A DNA stretch of 64,000 nucleotides from Haloarcula vallismortis ATCC 29715 (GTDB lineage: Archaea; Halobacteriota; Halobacteria; Halobacteriales; Haloarculaceae), in contig NZ_AOLQ01000004.1 in the NCBI RefSeq assembly GCF_000337775.1, positions 186,001 through 250,000 of the forward strand, given 5' to 3'. Shown here piece after piece: positions 4,557-63,272 of the stretch (positions are counted from its first letter, which is position 1; every line of letters starts with the position of its first letter). The notes below the pieces were generated by a model. That model did no database searches. It saw nothing but the letters and a program-made list of their open reading frames with translations, and was not told the DNA's origin. The position numbers and the translations under genes were made by a program.

Positions 4557-6035
4557 TCACTGGTCGGGTAGCCCAAGCGGGCTGAGGTCGACGTGCTCGG
4601 CGACGAAGCCGGCCGCTCGGTCGTACGGGTCGCCACCCTCTCGCCCCTCTTCCGCTGGCGGGTCGATTCCGGCTGCCTCGAAGGTATTTCGTACGAAGGC
4701 ATCTCTAGCAGTGTCGTTAACGAAGAGGTCATGCAGGTAGGTTCCAAGAACGGTGTCGGTCGCCGCTCCGTCGCCGTCGAACGGGCGGGCTGCCGTATCC
4801 GTCAGCGTCGAGTCCCCCATATGGATTTCGTAGCCCCCGACGGTCCCGCTCGCGCCGGAGAGCGGTCCGACGCCGTCAAGAGTCCGTTCGACGTGTTCGA
4901 CCGTCTTCGATTCGCTGAACGCCGTCGTCACCGGGAGCAGACCCAGCCCCTCGATGTGGTCTGCGTCGCCGGTCCCCTCGATGTCGGCGTTCGTGATTTC
5001 CTCGCCGAGCATCTGGTAGCCACCACAGAGACCGACGACGGGGCCGTCGAACGACTGGAGGCGGTCCCTGAACCCGGCATCGGTCAGTGCCAGCAAGTCG
5101 TCGACGGTGTTCTTGCTCCCCGGCAGGACCACCGCATCGGCGTCGTCAAGTGCGGCCTCGGGCGGGACGTACGCCACCCTGACGCCGTGTTCACGGGCGA
5201 GCGGCTGGAGGTCGGTGAAATTCGAGATGCGCGGGAGCCGGGGGACCGCGACGGTGACGCTCTCGTCGTCGGGCGCGCTGTCGTCAGCGCCGACGACGGA
5301 CCGCTCGCCGACCGGCGGCAGCGCGACGCTGTCCTCCTCGGGGAGGCCCGGGTCGTCGTAGGGAAGCACGCCGAGGACGGGGACGCCGGTCCGGTCCTCG
5401 AACGCCTCGATGCCGGGGGCAAGCAGCGAGCGGTCGCCGCGGAACTTCGTGATGACCGCGCCGGCCACCTGCTCCCGGATGTCGTCGGGGACGAGTTCGA
5501 GCGTTCCGACGAGCGACGCGAACACGCCGCCACGCTCGATATCGGCGACGAGCAGGATGTCGGCGTCGGCAAAGCGGGCCGTCTCGACGTTCGCCAGGTC
5601 GCGGTCGTGGAGATTGATTTCGGCGATGGAGCCGGCTCCCTCGGCGATAATCACGTCGTGTGCCTGTGAGAGTCGGTCGTGGGCTACGCGGGCCGCATCA
5701 AGTGCGTCCGCCCAGTGTTCGTCGTAGTACCCGCGGGCCTCGAAATGCCCGACAGCCTCGCCGTCCAGTACGAGCTGTGACTCGCCGTCACCCCGCGGTT
5801 TCAACAGCACTGGATTGTGGTCGGTCGACGGCGTGACACCGGCCGCACGGGCTTGAACGTACTGCGAGACGCCGACTTCGCCGCCCGGCGTCGCCCGGGC
5901 GTTGTTGCTCATGTTCTGGGCCTTGAACGGCGCGACCGAAACATCACGGTCGGCCAGATAGCGGCAGAGCCCGGCCGCGACGGTCGACTTGCCGACGTGG
6001 CTCGCGGTGCCCGCGACGAGCAGGGTTTCGGCCAT
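4557..6035 (-). CDS. cbiP: Cobyric acid synthase
   Basis: Glutamine-dependent amidotransferase (CobQ/CbiP) that amidates four carboxyl side chains of adenosylcobyrinic acid a,c-diamide. The N-terminal synthetase domain has the P-loop '[10 protein letters not shown]' (8-17) and 'KAQNMSNNA'. The C-terminal class I-type glutaminase domain has '[12 protein letters not shown]' with the nucleophile cysteine, and 'TYLHDLF' near the end. At 492 residues it is of normal length. It stands at the downstream end of the cobalamin cluster. Confidence 0.95.
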
Positions 6036-6061
6036 TACGACGGTCTGGGACCGCTGGCATC

Positions 6062-6379
6062 ATGAGTGATTCGACGGGGTTCTTTGGGCTGGCCCGCCGA
6101 GGTCGGTTCGTGACCGACGAACGATTGCAGGCCCTCCACGAACACCTCGTAGAAACCGGAAATCGTCCGGTCGAACGCACGGCCAGCCGCTGGCTCGGGG
6201 AGGCCGAGGCCGTCGCCGCTGACATCGCTACGGGGAAACTCTCTGAGGACGTGTTAGCCGAGCGACTGGCGATCGTCGACCACATTCTCTCGAACGTCGA
6301 CGGCACCGACGATGCCGTCGCCGACGACCACGCCGAGGCGGCCCGTGAAATCGTTGATGACCTGCTGGACGAACTGTAA
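6062..6379 (+). CDS. Small acidic haloarchaeal protein of unknown function
   Basis: A 105-residue, mostly helical and strongly acidic protein with no catalytic motif that I can see. It is the only plus-strand gene between cbiP and the adenosyltransferase gene and reads divergently from cbiP with only 26 bases between the starts. That position suggests a shared promoter region, but gives no function. Confidence 0.65.
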   Translation: MSDSTGFFGLARRGRFVTDERLQALHEHLVETGNRPVERTASRWLGEAEAVAADIATGKLSEDVLAERLAIVDHILSNVDGTDDAVADDHAEAAREIVDDLLDEL

Positions 6380-6400
6380 CTCCGTTCGAGGATACCGGAC

Positions 6401-7051
6401 TCAGAACTCCGTCCCTTTCCGCGCGCCCTGCCCAGCATCGATTGGGTGCTTCTCCTTGCTGACTTCGGTAATGAGGTCCGCGTGATCGTTCAGGAACTCC
6501 GGTCGCTCGTGGCCGCCCGTGAGGACGAGTTCGAGGTTATCAGGCTTGGATTCGATGAGTCCAAGCACGTCTGCAGGGTCGACGAGGCCGCGGTTCGCAG
6601 CGTAGAGAACTTCGTCGAGGACGAGCATGTTGACCCCATCTTCTGGCGGGCCGTCGGCATCCTGTGGCGTCGAGAGGTCAGCGTCGGCGCTGGCCTGAAT
6701 TATCTCTCGTGCGCGGTCGAGCGCCCCCTTCGCGCGGGCCTCGTGTTCGTCGTCCTCGCTCCCGTCGAGGAACCCGTGCCAGCCGTAGTGGCCCGCGTTT
6801 TCGTAGGAAAAGCCCGGCAGTGCGGCGATGGCGTTGTACTCGCCGCGCACGTCCTCGACGGTGCTGGTCCCGCCTTTCATGAACTGCAGGAGGTGGACGC
6901 GGTAGCCGTGGCCGACGGCGCGGGTTGCCATTCCCAGCGCCGCCGTCGTCTTCCCTTTCCCGTCGCCCCACCAGACCTGCACCAGCCCGAACTCCTCGGG
7001 CGCGCTCGGCTCGATGGGTTCGGCGGTCGGGCCGGCCGTGTTATCGGTCAT
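6401..7051 (-). CDS. cobA: Cob(I)alamin/cob(I)yrinic acid adenosyltransferase, CobA/CobO type
   Basis: Transfers the 5'-deoxyadenosyl group of ATP to Co(I) of corrinoids. The P-loop 'VWWGDGKGKTTAALG' starts at about residue 26, and 'HLLQFMKGG' and 'VLDEVLYAANRG' are typical of the CobA/CobO/BtuR family. The 216-residue length matches. It lies downstream of cbiZ and cobD on the same strand, where it would make the adenosylated substrates those salvage steps use. Confidence 0.92.
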   Translation of the reverse strand: MTDNTAGPTAEPIEPSAPEEFGLVQVWWGDGKGKTTAALGMATRAVGHGYRVHLLQFMKGGTSTVEDVRGEYNAIAALPGFSYENAGHYGWHGFLDGSEDDEHEARAKGALDRAREIIQASADADLSTPQDADGPPEDGVNMLVLDEVLYAANRGLVDPADVLGLIESKPDNLELVLTGGHERPEFLNDHADLITEVSKEKHPIDAGQGARKGTEF

Positions 7052-7120
7052 GCCAGTCTGTTCGACCGGATTCTGTTTAGCCGTTTGGTCTCCGAGACTG
7101 TCCCGCGATAGCCGCTCGTC

Positions 7121-7837
7121 TCACGGCTCGAACACCTCCGTCTCGCGCCCTGTAATCACGCCGTATGCCGCATCCTCGACAGTCGGCAGGCCGTCACCGT
7201 CGTACCGGGCGGCCAGACTCGCCCTGATAGCGTCACGGACGCATGCCCGAGTGGCCGCGCCGACTTCGGTCGCACTCCCGGCGAAAGACGCAGGCTCAGC
7301 GCTCGGGACACAGCCGACGATGGCCGCGTCCGAGGTTGTTCCGGGCACGCCCGCCGCGTCCAGCAGCGTCGCGGCCTTCGCTTCGACGGCGCTGGCAAGC
7401 AGCGTTGCCAGTGCGCCATCGTCCAGCTCGCGGTCGGCCCCGACGATGACGTTGACCGTCCCTGGTCGCCAGTCGGGGCTATCCGCCGGATTCGACGCGG
7501 TTCCATCGGCGTCGACTGCTTCATCGCCTGCCGACATCGGCAGCGCCGCGGGGTTCGAGAGGCCCGCGGTCGCCAGCACCGACACCGGCCTGCTCTGGGC
7601 ACAGCGGGCGTGTTCCATATGGACGCCGGTGAGCAACGCCGGGCCGACATCGAAGCCGGCCCCGGACAGCCGCTCAGCGCGGTAGGCGTCGAGGTCGGTC
7701 CGCTCGAACCCCTCGGGCACGGTGACGTTGTAGACGGCATCCGCGGCCCGGTACCCACCATCCCACGCTGTCGAGAGCCAGCGGGCACCCTCGCGACGAA
7801 TCTGACAGACGCCGTCACGAACGGTCGTCTCAAACAT
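7121..7837 (-). CDS. cbiZ: Adenosylcobinamide amidohydrolase
   Basis: CbiZ cleaves the aminopropanol side arm of adenosylcobinamide to give adenosylcobyric acid, the archaeal route for salvaging incomplete corrinoids. The 238-residue protein contains 'ATAGLSNPAALP' and 'NVIVGADRELDDGALA', which I recognise as CbiZ features. The ATG at 7837 lies 8 bases inside the end of the upstream aminotransferase gene, so translation is coupled. Together with CbiP, CobD and CbiB the cell can re-attach aminopropanol phosphate. Confidence 0.88.
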   Translation of the reverse strand: MFETTVRDGVCQIRREGARWLSTAWDGGYRAADAVYNVTVPEGFERTDLDAYRAERLSGAGFDVGPALLTGVHMEHARCAQSRPVSVLATAGLSNPAALPMSAGDEAVDADGTASNPADSPDWRPGTVNVIVGADRELDDGALATLLASAVEAKAATLLDAAGVPGTTSDAAIVGCVPSAEPASFAGSATEVGAATRACVRDAIRASLAARYDGDGLPTVEDAAYGVITGRETEVFEP

Positions 7838-8888
7838 CCAGCGCGCCCAGCAGCCGGTCGTTTTCTTCGGGCGCTCTAACAGCGACGCGGATGTGTGAGT
7901 CCAGCCCGCGAAACGTCCGGGCGTCCCGGAGGGCAATGCCAGCCTCGCGGGCCGAGGCAAGGATACCGTCGACAGACGTGTCGGCGTCGCTGACCGACAG
8001 CAGGAGGAACGGTGCAGCAGAACGGAACACGTCGAACCGTGCGTTCAGCCGCTCCCGCATCCGCGCTCGTTCAGCGGTAACGCGGGCTTTCGTCTCCGCG
8101 ACGAACTCAGTTTGCTGGTAACAGTGTGCGCCGACAGCGGCCGCGGGGGCGCTCATCGACCAGGCGCGCCGGGCCGTCGCGAGGCGGTCGCGCTCGTCCC
8201 CGGTCCCGATGGCATAGCCCATCCGGATGCCGGGAAGGCCGAACAGCTTCGTCAGCGACCGCGCGACGATGACGCCCTCACGACCGGCCAGCGACGGCTC
8301 GTCGGTGAACCCGAGGAATGCCTCGTCGACCAGCAGCGTCGTCCCGGCCGCACGGCAGCGGTCGGCGAAGGCCCGGAGCGCCCCGCGCTCGGCGACCTCG
8401 CCCGTCGGATTGTTCGGATTGCAGACGACGGCGAGTGCGTGGCCGGCCGGGTCGGCGTCGAGCAGTTCGCCGTGGGAGGCGAACTTCGGGGTCGCGCCTT
8501 GTAGTCGCACTTCTCTGGCGTATTCGCCGAAGCTTGGATACGGGAGCAAGACGCTGTCTCCCGCCCGGACCGTCGTCTGTATCGCGAGGCGTATCGCTTC
8601 GAGGCCGCCGGCTGTGGGTAGCACCTGCGCCGGCTCGCAGTCGACGAACGCCGCCGCGGCCTCACGGAATTCGGGGTAGTCGTCGGCCGGGTACGAGCGG
8701 GCCGTCTCGAACGCCGCCCGATACGTCGCTTCGGCCTCCGGCGGGACGTGCGGGTTGGTGTTCGCGCTGAAATCCAGCACCTCCGGGTCGTCGCTGCTGC
8801 CGTGTGGCACGCGGCCGTCGGGGCCGATGGCGTCCGTGGGCCCGTCGCCGCCACTTGCCCGCACGCCCTCGACCGAGTCAGGGTCCAT
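7830..8888 (-). CDS. cobD: L-threonine-phosphate decarboxylase-like PLP enzyme (CobD type)
   Basis: A fold-type I aminotransferase of 352 residues. 'DFSANTNPHVPP' near the N-terminus, 'NPNNPTGE' and the PLP-lysine region 'VARSLTKLFGLPGIRMGY' are typical of the CobD/HisC branch. CobD makes (R)-1-amino-2-propanol phosphate, the linker CbiB attaches to cobyric acid. HisC-like enzymes share all these motifs, so the CobD call rests on its place between cbiZ and cobY-cobS-cbiB. Start taken at the ATG at 8888. Confidence 0.85.
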   Translation of the reverse strand: MDPDSVEGVRASGGDGPTDAIGPDGRVPHGSSDDPEVLDFSANTNPHVPPEAEATYRAAFETARSYPADDYPEFREAAAAFVDCEPAQVLPTAGGLEAIRLAIQTTVRAGDSVLLPYPSFGEYAREVRLQGATPKFASHGELLDADPAGHALAVVCNPNNPTGEVAERGALRAFADRCRAAGTTLLVDEAFLGFTDEPSLAGREGVIVARSLTKLFGLPGIRMGYAIGTGDERDRLATARRAWSMSAPAAAVGAHCYQQTEFVAETKARVTAERARMRERLNARFDVFRSAAPFLLLSVSDADTSVDGILASAREAGIALRDARTFRGLDSHIRVAVRAPEENDRLLGALDV

Positions 8889-8937
8889 GGACAGACCTAC
8901 GGCGGGCGGTGTGGAGAAAGTTTCGCGGTGCCGCCAG

Positions 8938-11900
8938 TCAGTCCGGGCCGTCGACGCCGCGGAACTCGAACCGTGCGCCGCCACTCGCGCTTTCGGTCAC
9001 GGTGACCGCCCAGCCGTGTGCCTCGGCGATTTCCCGGACAATAGCGAGGCCGAACCCGGTCCCGCTCTCGGCGGTTGAATAGCCGCTCCGGAACACCGTC
9101 TCTCGCTCGTCGTCGGGAATGCCGGACCCGTCGTCCGCGACGTAGAACCCCGTCCCGTCGTCGAGCGTCCCGACCGTCACAGTGATTCCACTCGCGCCGG
9201 CCCGGGCGCCGCTGGAGGGTGCCGACCCGTTGGAATGTGGCGTTACGTCGCCGTCCTGTGGCTCCCGCGGCGAGGCCGTCGACCCGTGTTCGACGCTGTG
9301 GTCGGACGCCGACCGACTGCTCGCGGAACCGTGTTCCGCGCTGTCGTCGGAGCCTGTCCGACTGCTCGTGACGCCATGCTCCACGCTGTTCCGGACGAGG
9401 TTCTCGAACAGTTGCTGGAGGCGGGTCGGGTCCGCTATGACCGCTCCCTCGATGTCGGTTTCGAGCGTCGCCGCGCCGGTCCGGACGCTCCGCCAGGCCT
9501 GCTCGACCGCGTTCTCGACGGCGACCGGCTGGATGTCAGTGACCGCCTCGCCCTGCCGTGCCAGCGCCAGAAGGTCGTCGATAAGTTCCTGCATGCGGTC
9601 AAGCGACCGCTCGATGGCTGTCAGGTGTTCCGCCGACGGGTCCGCCTCCGCGAGCCGCAGCCGCCCCCGCGCCACGTCGAGCGGGTTCCGGAGGTCGTGG
9701 GAGACGATGCTGGCGAACTCGTCGAGGCGCTCCTTCTGGCGCTCGACGTGGGCCTTGTACTCGGCGCGTTCGGTGATGTCGGTGGCGACGCCACAGATTC
9801 CGGTGACGTTCCCCTCGGCGTCGTATATCGGGTTTTTGAGCGTGAGGAAAGTCCGCGACCCGTGGGGCGTGGGGACTTCCTCCTCCCGCTCGATGGAGTT
9901 GCCGGTCTCGATTATCTCCCGGTCGTCAGCGCGTATCTGCTGGGCGATTTCGTCAGGAAACAGTTCTGCATCGGTCTTCCCGACCACGTCCATCGCCCCG
10001 TCGACGAGCACCTCCCGGAACCGCTCGTTTATCCGCTGGTACCGCCCGTCGCTGTCTTTCAGGAACACAAGCGCGGTCGTGGTTTCGAGAATCGTCTGGA
10101 GCTGTCGGTTCGTCCTGGCAAGCGCTTCCTCGCGCTCCTTGCGGGCCGAGATGTCCCGGCCGATGGCGACGGTCCGCCGCTCCCCCTCGGGCGTCTCGAC
10201 CCGGTCAAAGACGAACTCGTAGGGAACGGGGTTGCCCCTGTCGTCTACCAGCGGAAGCTCTATCGTAGTGTCGCCGGCCTGGCTCGCCTCCGCGACGGTC
10301 CCGCGGTCCGCCGGCCGGAAGAACGCGACCCCATCCATCGAGGCCAGGGCCTCGCCGTCGTAGCCGGTCACGCGTTCGAGCGACTCGTTCCAGCGCCGGA
10401 CCCGGCCGCGCTCGTCCAACAGGAAGAAGACGTCGTCGACGGCGTCGAAGATGTCGTCGGTGAACTCCTTGTACTGACTGAGCGTCCGCTCGCGCTCCCT
10501 GAGCGCCTGCGTCGTCTGTTTCTGTTCGGTGATGTCCAGCGTCGCCCCGCGGATGATGTCCGCCCGGTCGTCGGGCCGTTCCGAGATGACGCGGAGCCAG
10601 CGGTCCTCGCCCTCCCCGGAGACGATGCGGTACTCCTGTGTGAGTCCCTCGCCCTCCTCGATGAGCCGTTCCGTCTCGGCGGCCACGCGGTCGTGGTCAT
10701 CCGGGTGGACGAAACCAAGCACCTCGTCCGGCGTCATCGTGTCCCGGGGCGGTATCCCGAATATTTCGAAGAGCTGGTCAGTCCACGTCGCCTCGTACGG
10801 CGGCTCGGCGATGTCGAGTTCCCACCCGCCCACGTCTGCAATCTGTTGGGCGTGCCGGAGCAGGTCTGTCTTCCGTTCGAGCTCCGCTTCCTGTCGTTTC
10901 TGGTCAGTGATGTCGACCATCGCGCCGCGACACGTGTCGAACTCACCGTCCTCCTCGACGGGGACGCCGATGGACCGAATCCACCGCGTCTCACCGTCTG
11001 GCGTCACGATTCTGGCTTCGAGGTCGAACGGCTCTCCCTCGGTCAACAGCGTCGACAGGGCGTTCTCTACCCGCTCGCGGTCGTCCGGGTGGAGCAGTTC
11101 GCCCGTCTGCTCGACGGGAATCTGCTCGTCAGGACCGAGGCCGTGCAGGCGGTAGAACCCCGCAGTCGGGCTCCCCTCGTAGGGCGGGCCGTCGGAGACA
11201 TCGATCTCCCAGCCGCCGACAGACGCGAGTTGTTCGGTCTGTGAGAGCAGGTCGCGCGTCCGTTCGAGAGTCTCGGCACGCTCCCGTTTCGCCGTCACGT
11301 CGTGGCCCGACGCCACGAGCGAGACGATGTCACCATCGTCGTCCCTGACCGGCCGGATATACCCGTGGTAGCTGAACTCCGCCGGCCTGTCGGTGGTGTG
11401 GTCGATGTCGACCTCGACGTACTCGCCGCCCGCGGCGCGTTCGACCCACTCCTTGACCTCGGCCGAGTGGCCCTCGGGCCACCACGACAGTTCCCAGAAG
11501 GGCTGTCCGACGACCGCCTCGCGCGGTGCGTCGACCGCCTCCAGCGCAGTTCGGTTCGCCTTGCGGACCGTCCCGTCGGGATTGAGGACGCCGACCAGCG
11601 TCTGTGGGTCCTCGAAGACCGCCTCGAACCGCCGTTCGCTTCGCTCGCGCTCTCGGCGGGCGCGCCGGCGCTCGACCGCGTTCCGGACCCGGTTCGCCAG
11701 AATCGTGTACTGGTCCGTGCTCCCGTCTTTCTGCAGGTAGTCCGTGACGCCAGCTGTGATGGCCTCGCTGGCGACGGCCTCGTTCCCCTTCCCGGTGAAG
11801 AGGACAAACGGAAGGTCGGGATAGCGGTCCCGGACGGCGTCGAAGAGCTCCAGGCCGTTCCGTCCGGGCATCTCGTAATCGCTGACGACGCAGTCGATGC

Positions 11901-12045
11901 TCTCGTCGAGACGGGCCAGACCGTCGTCGGGGCTCGTCGCCGTCACGACCGTCAGGTCGTCGGCGACCCGCTCGAGATACTCGGCCGTCATCTCGGCGAA
12001 CCCCTGTGCGTCGTCAACGTGGAGCACACAAATGTTGTCGGCCAT
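8938..12045 (-). CDS. Receiver and multi-PAS sensor histidine kinase
   Basis: A 1,035-residue cytoplasmic signalling protein. An N-terminal receiver domain ('ICVLHVDDAQGFAEMTAEYL', phospho-acceptor region 'DCVVSDYEMPGRNG', 'LFTGKG') is followed by about five PAS/PAC units, recognisable from repeated 'WIRSIGVPV..DITDQKR', 'WLRVISERPDD..LDITEQKQ', 'TVAIGRDISARKER' and 'ICGVATDITERAEY' ends. Next come the dimerisation/phospho-acceptor helix 'IVSHDLRNPLDVARGRL' and a HATPase domain with 'VADDGSGIPDD' and 'GTGFGLAIV'. There is no membrane segment. A 67-residue low-complexity insert splits the HATPase N-box. It separates the two halves of the cobalamin cluster; a link to cobalamin control is only positional. 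Confidence 0.9.
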   Translation of the reverse strand: MADNICVLHVDDAQGFAEMTAEYLERVADDLTVVTATSPDDGLARLDESIDCVVSDYEMPGRNGLELFDAVRDRYPDLPFVLFTGKGNEAVASEAITAGVTDYLQKDGSTDQYTILANRVRNAVERRRARRERERSERRFEAVFEDPQTLVGVLNPDGTVRKANRTALEAVDAPREAVVGQPFWELSWWPEGHSAEVKEWVERAAGGEYVEVDIDHTTDRPAEFSYHGYIRPVRDDDGDIVSLVASGHDVTAKRERAETLERTRDLLSQTEQLASVGGWEIDVSDGPPYEGSPTAGFYRLHGLGPDEQIPVEQTGELLHPDDRERVENALSTLLTEGEPFDLEARIVTPDGETRWIRSIGVPVEEDGEFDTCRGAMVDITDQKRQEAELERKTDLLRHAQQIADVGGWELDIAEPPYEATWTDQLFEIFGIPPRDTMTPDEVLGFVHPDDHDRVAAETERLIEEGEGLTQEYRIVSGEGEDRWLRVISERPDDRADIIRGATLDITEQKQTTQALRERERTLSQYKEFTDDIFDAVDDVFFLLDERGRVRRWNESLERVTGYDGEALASMDGVAFFRPADRGTVAEASQAGDTTIELPLVDDRGNPVPYEFVFDRVETPEGERRTVAIGRDISARKEREEALARTNRQLQTILETTTALVFLKDSDGRYQRINERFREVLVDGAMDVVGKTDAELFPDEIAQQIRADDREIIETGNSIEREEEVPTPHGSRTFLTLKNPIYDAEGNVTGICGVATDITERAEYKAHVERQKERLDEFASIVSHDLRNPLDVARGRLRLAEADPSAEHLTAIERSLDRMQELIDDLLALARQGEAVTDIQPVAVENAVEQAWRSVRTGAATLETDIEGAVIADPTRLQQLFENLVRNSVEHGVTSSRTGSDDSAEHGSASSRSASDHSVEHGSTASPREPQDGDVTPHSNGSAPSSGARAGASGITVTVGTLDDGTGFYVADDGSGIPDDERETVFRSGYSTAESGTGFGLAIVREIAEAHGWAVTVTESASGGARFEFRGVDGPD
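9253..9387 (-). repeat. Three 45-bp coding repeats inside the kinase ATPase domain
   Basis: Three consecutive 15-residue units (SVEHGVTSSRTGSDD, SAEHGSASSRSASDH, SVEHGSTASPREPQD) lie right after 'FENLVRN', that is, inside the N-box of the HATPase domain. The period is exactly 45 bases, so the frame is kept. An acidic serine/glycine-rich stretch follows to about 9187. The first 'SVEHG' belongs to the N-box itself, so the repeats look like tandem duplications of that segment. Confidence 0.75.
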
Positions 12046-12139
12046 CACCACACACAACGTTCCGGGTGGTCATATTTGCTTTCCAACACGATGTTGCGGT
12101 GACCGCACTACCGGCGGGCTGTCCCGTACCTGCCGGCGG

Positions 12140-12694
12140 TCACAGCCACTGTTCCGCGACGCGGGCGTCAGCGAGCGTGTTGACGTTGACCGCGACGCGC
12201 CGGTCCCGCATGAGCCGGGCGTCATCGGGACCGTCGCCGACGACGTTGACGCCCGTCGGTGCGACTTCTCGGCCGCCGTCTTCGAACGTCGTGTCATCGC
12301 TCACGCCGAGCGCGCGTTTCAGCGAGGCCGGGACCAGAACCGTCAGCGAGCCACCCTCGTGGGTGTCGAGCACGCGGTCGACTACTTCGCCCTCAAGTAG
12401 CGGCAGGTCAGCGGCGACGGTCAGGGCCGGCCGCGAGAGTCGGTCGTCGGCCAGCGCCGTGTCGAGGTCCGCGACGTACCCCTCGCCCGGCGTCTCGATG
12501 CAGGGCACGTTCAGATGTGACCGCGTCTCCGGCGCGTTTGGGGACGTTACGGCGATAACCCGCTCGACAGCGCTATCCTGCAGTGCGCCGACGACCCGGT
12601 CGACCATCGGGACGCCGCCGACCCGGAACAGCGGTTTCTCGGCGTCGGTGTCCAATCGTGTCCCGCGTCCGCCACACATCACGAGAGCGTCCAT
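12140..12694 (-). CDS. cobY: GTP:adenosylcobinamide-phosphate guanylyltransferase, archaeal CobY
   Basis: A 184-residue nucleotidyltransferase that activates adenosylcobinamide phosphate with GTP, replacing bacterial CobU in archaea. The start 'ALVMCGGRGTRLDTDAEKPL' contains the GGxGTRL nucleotide-binding loop and the conserved downstream lysine. 'TVAADLPLLEG' holds the metal-binding aspartate. It overlaps cobS by 16 bases (12679-12694), as expected for a coupled CobY-CobS-CbiB nucleotide-loop assembly set. Confidence 0.93.
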   Translation of the reverse strand: MDALVMCGGRGTRLDTDAEKPLFRVGGVPMVDRVVGALQDSAVERVIAVTSPNAPETRSHLNVPCIETPGEGYVADLDTALADDRLSRPALTVAADLPLLEGEVVDRVLDTHEGGSLTVLVPASLKRALGVSDDTTFEDGGREVAPTGVNVVGDGPDDARLMRDRRVAVNVNTLADARVAEQWL

Positions 12695-56679: not shown

Positions 56680-57696
56680 CTATATTTGACTCTGGAAGTT
56701 CCCGACAAAATCAGAGTAATCGGTTAGATCTATTTCTCCAAAGTCTACACTCTTGAACTCTGATTTCGGTATCATAAGTGTTTGAGTCCGTCCACCGGTC
56801 ATTCCTGGGCCGCCGCCCTGAATTTGCCAAGCTGAAGCTCTAACTACATCAGATAACTGGATGGAGTGCCAATCCACAAACTCACGGTTGAATACGTGGA
56901 GTTCATCTGCTTCCTCCACCTCTCGGACGATGTAGATTGGATCAAGGCCCTTCGTCAATGCCACACGTAGCATCACGATTAGCCGACTTACGTCCAGCCC
57001 GAATAGCTCAGTAGCATCTTGGTACGCTGTCTTTTCCTTGATCTCATAGGGAACGATCTCCGAACCACTGACCAAGAGGCCATCAACGTCGAAATAGGTC
57101 CCCGTGAAGCTGTATACGTTCTTCAGATGATGGGAAAAGAAATGCTCCTTGTAGAACATCTCTTTCAGCACATCATCAGAGAAGTCAGACACAGCCTCAG
57201 TAAACTCATCTATGTAGTCTCCATCATCTTCAGTACTCCTTCCCCGCGTTCTCCACGCCTCGGTTTCGTCCTCAATATCCACCTGCTCCAGCTCTCCACT
57301 ATCGAAGTTGTAAGAGCGCCACTCCCACTCTAACTCATGTTCAGGCGGAGTATCTCCTGACCCTCCTCGAAAACTACTCAGGCCTGATTGATCGCTCTCC
57401 ACTACTGACGGGAAAATAACAGTTGTACCAGCGCTCTCCATCAGCTTTGTGGCCTCAACTTGTGCAGTTGATAGAGTATCTTCCTCCGCTGCATCCAGAA
57501 TGAATGTGTAGATATTTTCCCACGGTTGGAACTCATCGTTCTCAGGCTTCGGCTGGAACAGCATTACCTCTGAGATCGGCTCGATATCAGTTGCTTCGAG
57601 CCTGTTAAGGAAGCGAGCTTCAGCAATCATTCCTACTGCCTTCTGCTGCGCCCAGTAAGTGTGGAGGTACTCGAGATATTCCGTTCGTTCCGTCAT
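56680..57696 (-). CDS. Predicted PD-(D/E)xK nuclease-like protein
   Basis: A 338-residue protein. The middle-to-C-terminal part contains 'TGTYFDVDGLLVSGSEIVPYEIKEKTAYQ', that is, Asp-x12-Glu-x-Lys, the core of a PD-(D/E)xK nuclease, with a Tyr/Gln pair just after it. The following 'LFGLDVSRLIVMLRVALTKGLDPIYIVREV' fits the fold's helix and strand. N-terminal 150 residues unrecognised. It is divergent from the paired restriction-type nucleases, sharing their 147-base promoter region. Confidence 0.6.
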   Translation of the reverse strand: MTERTEYLEYLHTYWAQQKAVGMIAEARFLNRLEATDIEPISEVMLFQPKPENDEFQPWENIYTFILDAAEEDTLSTAQVEATKLMESAGTTVIFPSVVESDQSGLSSFRGGSGDTPPEHELEWEWRSYNFDSGELEQVDIEDETEAWRTRGRSTEDDGDYIDEFTEAVSDFSDDVLKEMFYKEHFFSHHLKNVYSFTGTYFDVDGLLVSGSEIVPYEIKEKTAYQDATELFGLDVSRLIVMLRVALTKGLDPIYIVREVEEADELHVFNREFVDWHSIQLSDVVRASAWQIQGGGPGMTGGRTQTLMIPKSEFKSVDFGEIDLTDYSDFVGNFQSQI

Positions 57697-57740
57697 AATC
57701 GACAGAAGTCGCGCCCGATCCGAAAGAGGAGATTACAAGA

Positions 57741-57785
57741 TACACACTATATACACACAATCTTCTGTATCCTATCTCGTGTGTA
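57741..57785. promoter_or_regulatory. Tandem TACACAC operator with inverted copy, divergent promoter
   Basis: TACACAC occurs at 57741-57747 and 57752-57758 (11 bp apart, one helical turn) and inverted as GTGTGTA at 57779-57785. Within it, ATATACACACAAT (57749-57761) is the exact inverse of ATTGTGTGTATAT at 61717-61729 in the methyltransferase/winged-helix promoter region. A common regulator is likely. Confidence 0.6.
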
Positions 57786-57843
57786 AAGAGTGTTTAAGAT
57801 GTAATCTGTTCTCTTTGCGGTTTAATGAGTCACTTTCGGACAG

Positions 57844-58917
57844 ATGGCAGATTATTCCGGAGACCCCTCCGAGTTCAAGGTGTATTGGTTTGCCCGCGAT
57901 CTCGTTGCCTCCAGCTATGGTAGTTACGCTACTAAGGAAACACAGACTCTGAAGCAGCTTTCCTCCCGACTGGGTAATGAACTCGAAGGAGAAGGCCTGT
58001 TGAACGAAACAGACCTTGAAACGCAGAAACAGCAGATCAGAGACACAATCACCGGCTCCGTCAACAAAACATACGGTGGCGATATCTCGAAGCGCTATAG
58101 ACAGACCGAGGACCTAGCAGAAAGAATACTGCGAAGAATTGAAGAAGAGGATGATATCCGTGAATTTCGAATAGCGATTGACGCTGTCGTTCGTACCAGC
58201 GAAATTCTGGATACAGCTCCAAGCTTTGGAAAACAGGAAATCATCCGTATAGTGAACGAAACCCTCGAAACGGATAGAGGAGATCTTGATCCTTCAAAGG
58301 CCTATGATGCACTGTACAACGTCGATTTTGAGGGAGAAGCTTATCAGCTCGGAGCTCAACGAGAACCCCTGATCGACTATGTCTATGAGGAAATGGCAGA
58401 ACTTCGAGATAGCCCGCACATCGAGCAAAGAGAAGTAGCCAGAATAATCTCTGGGATAGTTCAAGAGTACGAACGTAGAGCCGGTCAGAGCCGGGCCTCT
58501 ACAGCCGGGAATGTTCTCGAAACCGGTCTCCAGCATATCTTCAATCAATTCCAGATTCCTGCTACTGGAGACCCTGCGCACTTCGGAGACCTTGAAATCG
58601 ACAACATGGTCGACGGTCCGGAAGGCAGCATCGGGTTCTCCTGCAAACGAACCCTCCGCGAACGTTTCCGCCAGAGCCTTTCGAGAGAGGCGGAGATTGG
58701 AGTGGATGAAGTCTGGTTTGTCTCTCTATTGATGGCTGACGTCTCCAAGGAGAAACTGCAGGACATCAGCAACGATGGAAGCAGGATCTACGTCCCACGG
58801 GACTCCTTCGTCTGGAACCGATACAACAACGACGACGGTCTTTCCTACACGCTTCGGCCTGCTGACCAGTTTATCGAGGACGTGGTCGAGTTCACAGGGG
58901 TTTCAGCCGATCTATGA
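57844..58917 (+). CDS. Restriction endonuclease-like subunit A (K-x3-RER motif)
   Basis: A 357-residue protein. Residues 1-215 are mostly helical and unrecognised. The C-terminal nuclease domain has 'RASTAGNVLETGLQHIF' (Glu226), 'LEIDNMVDG' (Asp253) and 'FSCKRTLRERF' with Lys268, Arg272, Glu273 and Arg274. The SxK...RER signature is that of CCGG-reading type II enzymes such as Ecl18kI, where lysine is catalytic and R-E-R contacts CC/GG. The next gene overlaps by 4 bases and encodes a homologous domain. Confidence 0.75.
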   Translation: MADYSGDPSEFKVYWFARDLVASSYGSYATKETQTLKQLSSRLGNELEGEGLLNETDLETQKQQIRDTITGSVNKTYGGDISKRYRQTEDLAERILRRIEEEDDIREFRIAIDAVVRTSEILDTAPSFGKQEIIRIVNETLETDRGDLDPSKAYDALYNVDFEGEAYQLGAQREPLIDYVYEEMAELRDSPHIEQREVARIISGIVQEYERRAGQSRASTAGNVLETGLQHIFNQFQIPATGDPAHFGDLEIDNMVDGPEGSIGFSCKRTLRERFRQSLSREAEIGVDEVWFVSLLMADVSKEKLQDISNDGSRIYVPRDSFVWNRYNNDDGLSYTLRPADQFIEDVVEFTGVSADL

Positions 58918-59621
58918 ATGGAGATGTAAAATCTCGGATTGAGCGATACACCTACTGGGATATCTTCGAGGACGACGTTAACCGCAGAACCGACCGTGAA
59001 ATCCTCACAGATATAGAGGGCCTGATGACCAACGTAGTCGACGAGGTTACAGAACGGGCACGAGAGAATGGAAAAGATGTCTCACAGGTCCGTTCCAACG
59101 TTGCTGGGAATTACTTCCAGGCACTGGTCTCATACGCTACAGCCGACGTTGCAGCTGAAAATGGGCTAAGACTCCTTCACAGCAAAAAGCTTGAGTCGAC
59201 AGAACTAGCGGATGCAGTTCCCATAATCGGTGGAGAAGATGAGACTATCCTATCGCCCGACTCTGATATAGTCTACTACGATCCGGATGGAGGACCTATC
59301 TTCATTATCTCGTGTAAGACAAGTTTCCGTGAAAGAATGGCTCAGAGCGGTATGTGGAAGCTGATGTTTGAGGTCGCCACGCATTCCTGTACTGATCCTG
59401 ATTGCCCTACGCACAACTATTCTTTCTCAGGAGAGTTTGAACGGGATATCTACATGGGATTCGGTACGGTTGATTTCTACGACGACGTCGAATCCAAAGA
59501 TATTGTAGAACTATTCGACTTCGGATATGCGCCTACAGTAGATGAAGGAACTTCTGGAGTAGCCTATCCCATGGAACGACTGATAGACCACATCGAGGAC
59601 GAATGGAGCAGCTTTAGATAA
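58914..59621 (+). CDS. Restriction endonuclease-like subunit B (K-x3-RER motif)
   Basis: A 235-residue nuclease, essentially one domain. 'VRSNVAGNYFQALVSYA' parallels subunit A but has Gln where A has Glu226. 'LSPDSDIVYYDPDGGPIFIISCKTSFRERM' gives Asp116/Asp118 and Ser133, Lys135, Arg139, Glu140, Arg141. This resembles BsaWI-type enzymes (from memory). 'HSCTDPDCPTHNYSF' is an additional Cys/His cluster, possibly zinc-binding. Translation starts in the stop of subunit A (ATGA, 58914-58917). A heteromeric restriction enzyme is the simplest reading. Confidence 0.75.
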   Translation: MNGDVKSRIERYTYWDIFEDDVNRRTDREILTDIEGLMTNVVDEVTERARENGKDVSQVRSNVAGNYFQALVSYATADVAAENGLRLLHSKKLESTELADAVPIIGGEDETILSPDSDIVYYDPDGGPIFIISCKTSFRERMAQSGMWKLMFEVATHSCTDPDCPTHNYSFSGEFERDIYMGFGTVDFYDDVESKDIVELFDFGYAPTVDEGTSGVAYPMERLIDHIEDEWSSFR

Positions 59622-60246
59622 CTCCGCCCCACTGCTTTGCCATGGCTTCTGCTACACCTGGGAAGAACCTGCTTCTTTCTTTACTTCTTTCTTCGCTGGG
59701 GGGCATCCTGTGTACTCTTGCTTCTCTTTTGTCTTCATCCTCGATTACATCTGTAGGTTCGAGTTTGGGAAGATTCTTCAACCATAGACATATCCCTTTT
59801 TTCTCGGGTTCTCCGAACTGCCATGGCTGAATGGTTTGTCTCTGTTCCTCAGGGTAGTCTTCAATGCCTGCTACCTTCTTCCCCCATTTGTGCATAACAG
59901 GGTTTTCTACCGCTATATGCGGTATTTTTTCACAATTCAGTAATTTTCTGAAGAACACTCCGCCTTCAACCATATCCTGCCATCTTTCCTCTTTCTCATA
60001 CAACCATCTTACCCCTGAATTACTGAGATAGGTACATGGTGGATGTGCAATCATCAAATCAAACTCTTCGCCTCTCTCCTCTAACAGTTCCAAGACATCT
60101 CCCTGAATATGATACTCGCTATTTTTTTCGGTCTCCTCCAGATCACAGCTTACAGCATCAAACCCTTCGTTTCTGAAAGCGTCTCTCACTATTCCTGAAA
60201 ATTCGCAGGCAACCAGCACTTTACCGCTATTGCTTTCTGCAGCCAT
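59614..60246 (-). CDS. Short phage-type DNA methyltransferase-like protein (PPC/ENP)
   Basis: A 210-residue protein of a group common in phages. 'KVLVACEFSGIVRDAFRNEGFDAVSCDLEETE' is a SAM-binding-like start, 'LMIAHPPCTYLSNSGVRWLY' carries PPC as in C5-cytosine methyltransferase motif IV, and 'HIAVENPVMHKWG' looks like the ENV motif VI. 'QTIQPWQFGEPEKKGICLWLKNLP' follows. No target-recognition domain fits in this length. Its 3' end overlaps the end of nuclease B by 8 bases (convergent). Confidence 0.72.
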   Translation of the reverse strand: MAAESNSGKVLVACEFSGIVRDAFRNEGFDAVSCDLEETEKNSEYHIQGDVLELLEERGEEFDLMIAHPPCTYLSNSGVRWLYEKEERWQDMVEGGVFFRKLLNCEKIPHIAVENPVMHKWGKKVAGIEDYPEEQRQTIQPWQFGEPEKKGICLWLKNLPKLEPTDVIEDEDKREARVHRMPPSEERSKERSRFFPGVAEAMAKQWGGVI

Positions 60247-60299: not shown

Positions 60300-61658
60300 T
60301 CAATCTGCCTCCTGCGGTTCCTCTTCTTGGATAGGCTGATTGAAGATCTCCGTCCGAATAGCAGTGCCGAGAGCTTGAGCCAGTAACGGCGGAACGGCGT
60401 TACCCACCTGTTTGAAGGCGTGAGTGCGTGAGACGGGGAACTCGAATGTGTCCTTGAACGATTGCAGCCGTGCTGCCTCTCGAACCGTGATTGAACGGGC
60501 CTCATTCGGATGGATGAACATATGCCCGTCCTTGTAGAGATGTGCCACAATCGTGGTGGACGGTTCCTTCGGGTTCTGCTTTTTCAGTTTATCCGGGAAG
60601 ATATCAGTCCGGTAGGGCTGGTGCTCCTCTGGGATATCTCCAATGATATACGAGGTCCCTTCTCCAAGAAGTTTGTAGAGAGTCAGGTCACGCATATTAT
60701 GGCCACGGCACTCGTGGTTCAAGAGATCTTGTTCCTCCCAGTCCTGTTCCTCGTCGAGATCTCTTGCCCAGTACTGGTACTCTGAAACTGGACCTATTTC
60801 ATATTCTTCTGCTTTGGTTGGCGGTGTCTCACCCTTGGGGGAGACAGGAGGGAGGTCGAAGATACCATCAGCCACAGTGTTCCAGGGCTCTTTATTCCGC
60901 TTGTTCTTGCGGAAAGTGGGAAACTCTTCTTCTTCACGGTTGTCGACGAAACCGTCGAGTGTGTGCTGATCTTCTTCGGAGCGCTTGGAGGGATCTTTCT
61001 TGTACTTGATTTTCTTCTCTTCCTCATTCTTGGGAGGCCGGTGTGTCTCCCACTGCTCCATATCCGGGTTTTCCGCACCTAATCGGTTTCCAATAAAGAA
61101 CAGCCGACTCCGGTGTTGGGGTACGCCGTAGTTCGCGGAGTCCAAAAGCTGGACCTTGACATTATAGTCTAGGTCAAGATCCATATCTGCGACCTCTCTT
61201 TCGCCACGCATTTGTTCCTTGATGGTGTCGACGACAGGTTTGCCGTCCTCGTTTTCTGCGGAGAGCATACCCTCGACGTTTTCCATCAGGAAGGCCTTTG
61301 GCTGATAGTGGTCGACGAATCGAAGAAACTCCTCGTAAAGGAGGTGACGTTCGTCACTCTGGTTATCGCGTCCTTCAAGTGAATTGATCTTGCTGCGGCC
61401 GACAAGTGAGAAAGTTGGGCAGGGTGGTCCACCTGCGACGAGGTCCAGTTCGCCTTCCTCTAAGCCGAGGTCTGGTGGCTCTTCTTCACGGATGTCGCCC
61501 ACCGTCATTTCGCATTCATGGTTTGCATCGTAGGTGGGCTTCGTATTCTCTTCGTGGTCAATTCCCCAGAGAACTTCGAACCCGGCGTCGTGGAGGCCTT
61601 GAGATAGGCCGCCGGCCCCGCAGAAGAGGTCGATAGCTGTGAGACGTTCCTCGGTCAT
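60300..61658 (-). CDS. DNA C5-cytosine methyltransferase
   Basis: A 452-residue methyltransferase with the ordered motifs: I 'IDLFCGAGGLSQGL', IV 'VAGGPPCPTFSLVGRSK' with the catalytic Cys80, VI 'AFLMENVEGML', VIII 'PQHRSRLFFIG', IX 'TVREAARLQSF' and X 'QVGNAVPPLLAQAL'. The target-recognition region between VIII and IX is about 210 residues and strongly charged. It should methylate the site cut by the nuclease pair. Divergent from the winged-helix gene across a promoter with the shared 13-bp motif. Confidence 0.93.
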   Translation of the reverse strand: MTEERLTAIDLFCGAGGLSQGLHDAGFEVLWGIDHEENTKPTYDANHECEMTVGDIREEEPPDLGLEEGELDLVAGGPPCPTFSLVGRSKINSLEGRDNQSDERHLLYEEFLRFVDHYQPKAFLMENVEGMLSAENEDGKPVVDTIKEQMRGEREVADMDLDLDYNVKVQLLDSANYGVPQHRSRLFFIGNRLGAENPDMEQWETHRPPKNEEEKKIKYKKDPSKRSEEDQHTLDGFVDNREEEEFPTFRKNKRNKEPWNTVADGIFDLPPVSPKGETPPTKAEEYEIGPVSEYQYWARDLDEEQDWEEQDLLNHECRGHNMRDLTLYKLLGEGTSYIIGDIPEEHQPYRTDIFPDKLKKQNPKEPSTTIVAHLYKDGHMFIHPNEARSITVREAARLQSFKDTFEFPVSRTHAFKQVGNAVPPLLAQALGTAIRTEIFNQPIQEEEPQEAD

Positions 61659-61713: not shown

Positions 61714-61731
61714 TATATTGTGTGTATATTG
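61714..61731. promoter_or_regulatory. Direct-repeat operator between methyltransferase and winged-helix genes
   Basis: TATATTG, TGTG, TATATTG: two copies one helical turn (11 bp) apart. The core ATTGTGTGTATAT (61717-61729) is identical, inverted, to 57749-57761 in front of the nuclease genes. It lies about 56 bases before the methyltransferase start and 44 before the winged-helix ATG. Confidence 0.6.
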
Positions 61732-61774
61732 TAACCAACTTAAATACTTCGCTACGGCAAATTCCCTGTACTGA

Positions 61775-62029
61775 ATGGACGTCGAGGAATATTCGTGGGT
61801 GAAAGCCAGCGAGTACCGTGAGAATCTTCTGCTCGCGCTCGAGGATAAACCTCGTACGCCGAAAGAGCTGTCAGAGATGACTGACTACTACCTGAGCCAC
61901 GTCAGCAATGTTCTCTCAGATCTGGACGATCACGGCCTCGCAGAATGCATAACACCCGACCGGAAGAAAGGCCGTCTATGGAAAGTGACCGAAAAAGGCG
62001 AAGAAATAATTGAGGACCTGAAACGGTGA
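61775..62029 (+). CDS. Small winged-helix regulator of the restriction-modification locus
   Basis: An 84-residue ArsR-like winged helix. 'TPKELSEMTDYYLSHVSNVLSDLDDHGLAECITPDRKKGRLWKVTEKGEEIIEDL' shows the HTH, wing and terminal helix. The only DNA-binding domain protein between the methyltransferase and glycosylase, it is the natural candidate to bind the 13-bp motif, acting like a restriction-modification controller protein (inference). Its stop overlaps the GTG start of the next gene. Confidence 0.78.
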   Translation: MDVEEYSWVKASEYRENLLLALEDKPRTPKELSEMTDYYLSHVSNVLSDLDDHGLAECITPDRKKGRLWKVTEKGEEIIEDLKR

Positions 62030-62820
62030 CCGAGCAATCATCCCTACCATTTGGAAAGACTGACGTCACCAGCGAAGAACTCAAACAGCTAATTGATACA
62101 GAAGAGGCCATCATACAGGCAAAAAAAGGAGGAGTAAAAGATACAGAGCAGCAGATCAGCGATTTTATCAACTGTATTCCTAACCTCTTGAACTGGCTTG
62201 AAGACCATGGGCGAAGGTATCCGTGGAGGGAAACAGAGGATCCGTGGAAAGTCTACTTAGCTGAGATTCTCCTCCAGCGAACACGAGGAGATGCCGTTGA
62301 GAAAATATACTCGGACGTAATTCAACAGTTTCCGACCCCAGAAGCTCTGAATCAGGCCTCAGAAGAAGAGATTAGGGAAGTCGTTCACTCTCTCGGCTTT
62401 GTGAATCACAGACAGAGAACGCTAGAAGAGGTCGGGAGAATTTTCACCCAAGAGTTCAATGGAGAAATCCCGAACTCCATCGAGGATTTGAAGAAACCAT
62501 GGCGAGTGGGTGACTACTCTGCGAGGGCTACCCAGCTATTTGCAAGGGGAGAACCCATGGCCTTGGTCGATTCCAACTTCGCCAGAGTAATCGGCAGAGT
62601 TCTTGGATATGAAATGCCACAGCAACCTCACAAGAGCGATGACGTGTATGCACTGCTGGATGCGCTCACACCAACTGATTCAGATATTACACGGAGTTTC
62701 AATTTAGCCGTTCTCGATCTCGGAGCTCTCGTATGCACGCCTGACAGCCCAAATTGTGAATCGTGCCCTATTAGCGCTGCCTGCCACTACTACCGGTTAA
62801 CAAGGATGGAGGGCGACTAA
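62026..62820 (+). CDS. HhH-GPD DNA glycosylase, Mig.Mth-like G/T mismatch type
   Basis: A 264-residue glycosylase with GTG start overlapping the winged-helix gene (GTGA). 'HGRRYPWRETEDPWKVYLAEILLQRT' is MutY/Mig-like. Tyr164 ('VGDYSARA') and Asp182 ('LVDSNFARVIGRVLG') match the active residues of the thermophilic archaeal mismatch glycosylase Mig.Mth, not the lysine of endonuclease III. The [4Fe-4S] cysteines are 237, 244, 247 and 253 (C-x6-C-x2-C-x5-C). Such an enzyme repairs T opposite G formed when 5-methylcytosine deaminates, which fits the neighbouring C5 methyltransferase. Confidence 0.85.
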   Translation: MTEQSSLPFGKTDVTSEELKQLIDTEEAIIQAKKGGVKDTEQQISDFINCIPNLLNWLEDHGRRYPWRETEDPWKVYLAEILLQRTRGDAVEKIYSDVIQQFPTPEALNQASEEEIREVVHSLGFVNHRQRTLEEVGRIFTQEFNGEIPNSIEDLKKPWRVGDYSARATQLFARGEPMALVDSNFARVIGRVLGYEMPQQPHKSDDVYALLDALTPTDSDITRSFNLAVLDLGALVCTPDSPNCESCPISAACHYYRLTRMEGD

Positions 62821-62822
62821 AT

Positions 62823-63272
62823 ATGGCATACTTTTGGCTGAATCAGAAAGGAACTGATGGAAGCAACTACCATGATGAGGTCGGAGAGGTCTACCACTAC
62901 AGAGGGAACACGCCTGGAGCAAACCAGCTTTCCGAGGGTGACAAATTCATCTACTACCGTCCCGGTGATTATGTGATATTCGGAGCGGGAGAGATAGATC
63001 ATATTGAGCGAAAAGAACGAGACCTTGACTCTGAATCGGGGGTTGCTGTGGATTACTTCGCGCACATCACCAACTACCAGCCTTTTGAACCGCCGATAAG
63101 GCTCAAAGGTGTGAACGAGAGTGCCTTGAAGAACAAGATCTCCTTCCTCAAGGATAAACCGGGGCTAACGGGAGTTCCACAACATAGCATACACCAGATA
63201 TCCAAAGAGGATTTTAAGGCAATTATTGAGGCAGGAGAGAAAGAGGTCGGCCCAACTGGGGCAAGAGAATAA
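62823..63272 (+). CDS. PUA/EVE-like single-domain protein
   Basis: A 149-residue protein. 'NYHDEVGEVYHYRGNTPGANQLSEGDKFIYYRPGDYVIFGAGEIDHIE' followed by 'YFAHITNYQPFEPPIRL' has the arrangement of EVE/PUA-like domains that sit at the N-terminus of HNH or McrA-type modification-dependent endonucleases. Here no nuclease is fused. It starts 2 bases after the glycosylase stop. Reading of modified cytosine is plausible but not proven. Confidence 0.55.
   Translation: MAYFWLNQKGTDGSNYHDEVGEVYHYRGNTPGANQLSEGDKFIYYRPGDYVIFGAGEIDHIERKERDLDSESGVAVDYFAHITNYQPFEPPIRLKGVNESALKNKISFLKDKPGLTGVPQHSIHQISKEDFKAIIEAGEKEVGPTGARE

Follow-up and report, generated by a model that had tools for sequence, protein, structure and literature searches.

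Two overlapping haloarchaeal genes for predicted CCGG-family restriction endonucleases: a likely EcoRII-type restriction-modification system with an added BsaWI-branch nuclease

The question raised by this locus is whether two overlapping genes, A and B, encode the subunits of one restriction enzyme or two separate enzymes. The window, a stretch of 64,000 nucleotides, was analysed together with related loci from other genomes. An earlier note had described A and B as homologous nucleases and proposed that they form one heteromeric enzyme for a CCGG-containing site. The two open reading frames, their ATGA overlap and the SCK-x3-RER motif (S266-C-K268-RTL-R272-E273-R274 in A and S133-C-K135-TSF-R139-E140-R141 in B) were all found as described there, as were the acidic residues N-terminal to the lysine of this motif (D249/E251/D253 in A and D116/D118 in B). 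The R-x(3-4)-AGN motif is present in both proteins (R217-x3-A221-G222-N223 and R60-x3-A64-G65-N66), but its asparagine is not kept among B proteins, being AGK in G027 and AGS in a distant relative. Comparison of G000 with G277 revealed a dN/dS of 0.03-0.04 for both A and B, indicating strong purifying selection. Structure predictions, made from two input sequences each, were of low confidence (pLDDT 38 for A and 40 for B).

Overall, our analysis favours as likely a reading in which B acts autonomously, as a further CCGG-family nuclease placed in a variable slot of an EcoRII-type restriction-modification (R-M) system. In that reading A, the methyltransferase M, the small wHTH protein and the glycosylase would constitute one Type II R-M system of EcoRII type. 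M would methylate cytosine in what is probably CCWGG and A would cleave unmethylated sites; T:G mismatches arising from deamination of 5-methylcytosine would be repaired by the glycosylase, and the wHTH protein would balance expression via an element in both promoters. B would be a BsaWI-branch addition that follows A within the variable A-M interval; it would most likely work as a homodimer or homotetramer of B alone, on a related site protected by M. The sites, the catalysis by B, its protection by M and the role of the regulator are the parts that we infer.

Table 1. Features of the locus, with positions in the window.
Feature	Position	Strand	Length	Description
N	56680..57696	-		Possible nuclease, unclassified; has a D-x14-E-x-K motif; gene divergent from A
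A	57844..58917	+	357 aa	EcoRII-C/Ecl18kI-like predicted restriction endonuclease, ~200-residue N-terminal extension
ATGA, A stop/B start overlap	58914..58917	+		Read in sequence; identical in G277 and G027
B	58914..59621	+	235 aa	BsaWI/PfoI-branch predicted restriction endonuclease, optional
Short C5-methyltransferase-like protein	59614..60246	-		Phage type; phrog_757 DNA methyltransferase, 7e-57
M	60300..61658	-		C5-cytosine DNA methyltransferase; Pfam DNA_methylase, 3.9e-63; convergent with A/B
Promoter element GTTACAATATACACACA	61719..61735	-		Intergenic, common to M and the wHTH gene
Small wHTH protein	61775..62029	+		Candidate controller; weak wHTH family matches; present in 10/12 A loci
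HhH-GPD DNA glycosylase	62026..62820	+		MIG-like (T:G mismatch repair); 1kea (MIG), 1.6e-34
EVE-domain-like protein	62823..63272	+		Pfam EVE, 7e-4, below cut-off

Judged by their family matches, A and B are both members of the CCGG family of restriction endonucleases, which bears out the family assignment made earlier. A matched Pfam EcoRII-C (PF09019) with an E-value of 9.6e-5 and 23 bits, 2 bits short of the curated cut-off of 25 bits, and a profile built from 15 A-like proteins matched the solved EcoRII structures 3hqg (3e-5) and 1na6 (2e-4). B matched Pfam RE_BsaWI (PF18643) with 5e-9 and 36.6 bits, above the cut-off of 26.2, the match covering profile positions 18-65 of 105; the alignment of the B profile with PfoI is weak (E 0.76) but in register. 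Direct comparison of A with B gave one 22-residue match by BLASTP (E 0.006) and 18 columns by profile-profile alignment. Their homology, claimed earlier, thus stands at the level of the superfamily, while pairwise comparison yields this single stretch, which suggests that A and B represent different branches and not a recent duplication. A recent duplication of A as the origin of B is ruled out, the pairwise similarity being almost nil.

The C-terminal domain of A (residues 193-317) aligns with EcoRII, including the K-T-x-(K/R)-(D/E)-R-(W/F)-R-Q block. EcoRII, Ecl18kI and PspGI, the enzymes against which A was set, have CCWGG or CCNGG as their sites. Unlike EcoRII, A has an N-terminal region in which neither a family match nor the EcoRII effector domain was recognised, and its second active-site acid lies at K+14 (not invariant) or K+16 (invariant) and not at K+13. 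Candidate active-site residues invariant in all 12 A proteins are E226, D249/E251/D253, K268, R272-E273-R274 and E284. Other EcoRII-C proteins have the catalytic lysine replaced, reading SCLTTMRDR or SYLTTLRDR (L034 7191-8222, L035 7330-8364 and L036 6229-7197); their genes are close to two C5 methyltransferase genes, with a HEC-05-like gene between in L034 and L035. Their sequences raise the question of whether this active site is inactive or permuted.

Analysis of 391 sampled genomes of the class revealed full-length A in 12. A was accompanied by M in all 12 loci, 11 times inside the region fetched and in G165 at a distance of 17 kb on the same contig. The genus sample gave the same pairing: the four genomes with M at 80% identity or more are the four with full-length A. 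In a further genome, G030, A is reduced to its first 41-42 residues (L033, about 7885-8007; 7e-19), by its sequence a vestige of a copy of the system that was lost. B was found in three of the 391 genomes (G000, G277 and G027), each time overlapping A by ATGA, so that its haloarchaeal occurrences are solely directly behind A. Neither A nor B matched the plasmid collection or the viral contigs, and B gave no match in the phage collection. The B-bearing loci are scattered and not grouped on the A tree, suggesting repeated gain or loss of B, or its exchange. In the comparison of G000 with G277, dS amounts to 0.61 in B, as against 1.02 in M and 1.65 in A, the larger values being near saturation; the lower value suggests that the B segment was exchanged more recently than A and M.

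This gene content argues against the proposal of a single heteromeric A-B enzyme. In nine of its 12 loci A has no B, and the contig carrying a relative of B lacks A, on which grounds an obligate A-B heteromer is rejected. The earlier note had suggested a search for genomes with both genes in tandem, and B follows A in only three of the 12 loci; homologues of A and B are found apart, which it had foreseen as contrary to its proposal and which counts at least against an obligate heteromer. It had further read A's extension and B's glutamine as signs of possibly unequal subunits. All 12 A loci encode the extension, the nine without B among them, and glutamine at the helix position after AGN also occurs in other BsaWI-like enzymes, the relatives of B; neither feature, therefore, argues for unequal subunits.

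The Type IIT enzymes BbvCI and Bpu10I, and BslI, resemble the present pair in having two adjacent restriction subunit genes. They differ from it in that here A is mostly alone and only one full-length methyltransferase is present; the regular joint encoding of subunits that marks Type IIT is not seen, with B behind A in three of 12 loci. It would still be conceivable, though we consider it quite improbable, that where both occur A and B combine, for example as A2B2, into a mixed assembly whose site, strand bias or regulation is altered. The ATGA overlap is retained in all three B-bearing loci despite 18-25% divergence of the proteins, and A and B belong to the same superfamily. However, the nine loci with A alone, the relative of B without A on its contig and the very low A-B similarity speak against such assembly, as does the single M, since asymmetric Type IIT enzymes generally come with two methyltransferases (PMC4081073). 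A joint role of A and B would also explain that in the sampled haloarchaea B was never found away from A (three of three loci).

Outside these loci the branch of B occurs without A. Of 393 genomes searched across the phylum, 19 had BsaWI-family matches, and for ten BsaWI-like loci from other archaea the flanking sequence was retrieved as well. No A-family match was present in any of the ten, flanks included, and a methyltransferase gene was near the BsaWI-like gene in all ten as judged from translated ORFs; Pfam confirmed methyltransferases at three of them, of N6/N4 type in two and C5 type in one. The presence of BsaWI-like genes beside methyltransferases and without A indicates that this branch can serve R-M loci of its own. 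The nearest distant relative of B belongs to another archaeon (G538, L132; 29% over 189 aa, 4e-22), where its neighbours are a C5 methyltransferase, a glycosylase (38%) and a homologue of N; A has no match on this 28-kb contig. Elsewhere on the contig of this relative (L142), a by-eye reading of translations revealed pieces like a split M-like C5 methyltransferase and drmB/drmA-like ORFs (22-1044 and 6019-12395).

Comparison of active sites bears on whether B cuts DNA. The active site of BsaWI (site W/CCGGW) consists of E92, D145, K165 and D175 (PMC4652773). B, whose RE_BsaWI match places it beside this enzyme, retains D116-x-D118, K135 and R-E-R but has Gln69 at the E92 position and Ser145, not an acid, at the D175 position, where other relatives vary too, as well as a His/Cys-rich insert. 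With PfoI (site T/CCNGGA) B shares in register, within the weak alignment given above, the minor-groove glutamine, the acid-x-D and the lysine. PfoI, an active enzyme, has an E-x-D...K core, and its helix glutamate mutant retains just 2% activity (PMC6344858). B is probably catalytically active, since PfoI works with such a core and the glutamine recurs in B's relatives; it may be weak or inactive, since it is without the helix glutamate and second acid known from BsaWI. The glutamine as the mark of a dead subunit is weakened, as relatives carry the same residue. What sets B apart from both BsaWI and PfoI is its setting, behind an EcoRII-type enzyme and adjoining a C5 methyltransferase. All three B proteins share H157-x-C159-x4-C164-x2-H167 without change (59382-59414; residues 157-167), and its two cysteines also occur in the distant relative, making this cluster a possible zinc site.

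The two substitutions, together with the restriction of B to positions behind A in the sampled haloarchaea, would fit B being a catalytically weak relative that binds sites near those of A and serves A as an accessory (effector or regulator), not as a nuclease in its own right. We regard this as unlikely, as the D-x-D...K core is intact family-wide, PfoI cleaves with a similar core, and relatives sharing the glutamine adjoin methyltransferases.

The short methyltransferase-like gene lies between B and M in G000 and G277 only and is absent from the ten other A genomes. It is adjacent to B there, tail-to-tail with an 8-bp overlap, and its product falls in a phage methyltransferase family, so that B and this gene could be viewed as a second R-M pair, complete in itself, that was inserted into the A-M interval. 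This is very doubtful, however: G027 has an intact B and no homologue of the short methyltransferase anywhere in its genome, which makes B and the short gene unlikely as one unit. In G027 the single C5 methyltransferase detected (E<=1e-10) is M, and M may thus protect the site of B too, as the autonomous-nuclease reading supposes; alternatively, G027 may have amino-methyltransferases that do so.

Analysis of sampled sequence revealed depletion of CCWGG in A-bearing genomes, with observed/expected (O/E) ratios of 0.17 in G015, 0.15 in G318 and 0.06 in G172, of 0.40-0.63 in G165, G420, G000, G027, G277 and G068, and of 0.94 in G017, several of these values being based on only 10-36 kb. CCSGG showed O/E of about 1 in the sampled sequence of A-bearing genomes. 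CCWGG was also depleted in a relative without A (G011, 0.64). At the whole-genome level, with TCCWGGA and TCCSGGA as stand-ins for CCWGG and CCSGG and with comparison genomes that were not randomly drawn, the three lowest W/S double ratios among 58 genomes were from A-bearing genomes (Mann-Whitney p = 0.022, kinship ignored). These results give moderate support to CCWGG as probably the site of the A/M system. Depletion of TCCNGGA, ACCGGT or WCCGGW, looked for as a pointer to the site of B, was not seen. Irrespective of the system, CTCGAG and GGCGCC were strongly depleted (O/E 0.08-0.21) and GATC was depleted to about 0.4-0.5 in the sampled sequence of G015, G027, G000 and G011.

Most A loci retain the glycosylase in the vicinity of M; among solved structures this protein matched archaeal MIG (1kea) at 1.6e-34 versus 5e-30 for MutY, and its NCBIfam mutY match was under the cut-off. 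A C5 methyltransferase and a MIG-like glycosylase in one locus recall the MthTI-MIG type of archaeal 5-methylcytosine R-M system, from which the present loci differ in their restriction enzymes, the wHTH regulator and the variable slot. The candidate element GTTACAATATACACACA or a close variant, a motif chosen by eye, occurs upstream of M in wHTH-bearing loci, in looser form in G318 and others, and related inverse half-sites occur upstream of A (about 57732-57805 in the window). A search of G017 and G297, the two loci that lack the wHTH gene, gave neither element nor half-sites. This pattern suggests that the wHTH protein is controller-like and part of a candidate archaeal controller-protein circuit.

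Comparison of the 12 loci further revealed that the A-M interval varies. In six loci the distance from the stop codon of A to that of M is -4 to 218 bp; it grows to 708 bp where B alone intervenes (G027) and to 1.3-1.4 kb where B is joined by the short methyltransferase (G000 and G277). In G068 it is 1.7 kb, filled by an unclassified 551-aa ORF (L024 4791-6446), and in G420 it is 5.5 kb, with a four-gene ATPase/LmuB-like cassette (L025 8195-13513). The 17 kb of G165 (L061 188-16871) hold drmE-like, drmA, drmB and drmC genes and a three-gene ATPase/LmuB-like cassette homologous to that of G420. A DISARM has been reported to modify CCWGG (PMC11676413). M resembles C5 methyltransferase models of DISARM, scoring 9.5e-82 with a DrmMII model, but it scores better with a Type II methyltransferase model (2.5e-90), and a scan of nine proteins around A-B-M in the window gave no match to drmA, drmB, drmC or drmE. 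A speculative and rather unlikely extension would be that the A-M space serves as a slot for exchangeable cargo, be it another restriction enzyme, the drm genes of DISARM or an ATPase/LmuB-like cassette, and that this cargo is selected for reading a common cytosine-methylation mark, one methyltransferase protecting the host from several stacked effectors.

Should B cut alone under the protection of M, two distantly related restriction enzymes would share a single methyltransferase. Viral escape through the loss of one site type would then become harder, and the locus would show R-M systems gathering further effectors around a single self-mark. The haloarchaeal loci offer natural pairs with and without B.

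Gene N gave no match in family searches. It recurs beside A in G277, G420 and G181, in the last broken by an insert, and its homologue adjoining the distant B relative (L132 6134-7225) aligns at 31% over 221 aa. N is possibly another nuclease of these systems.
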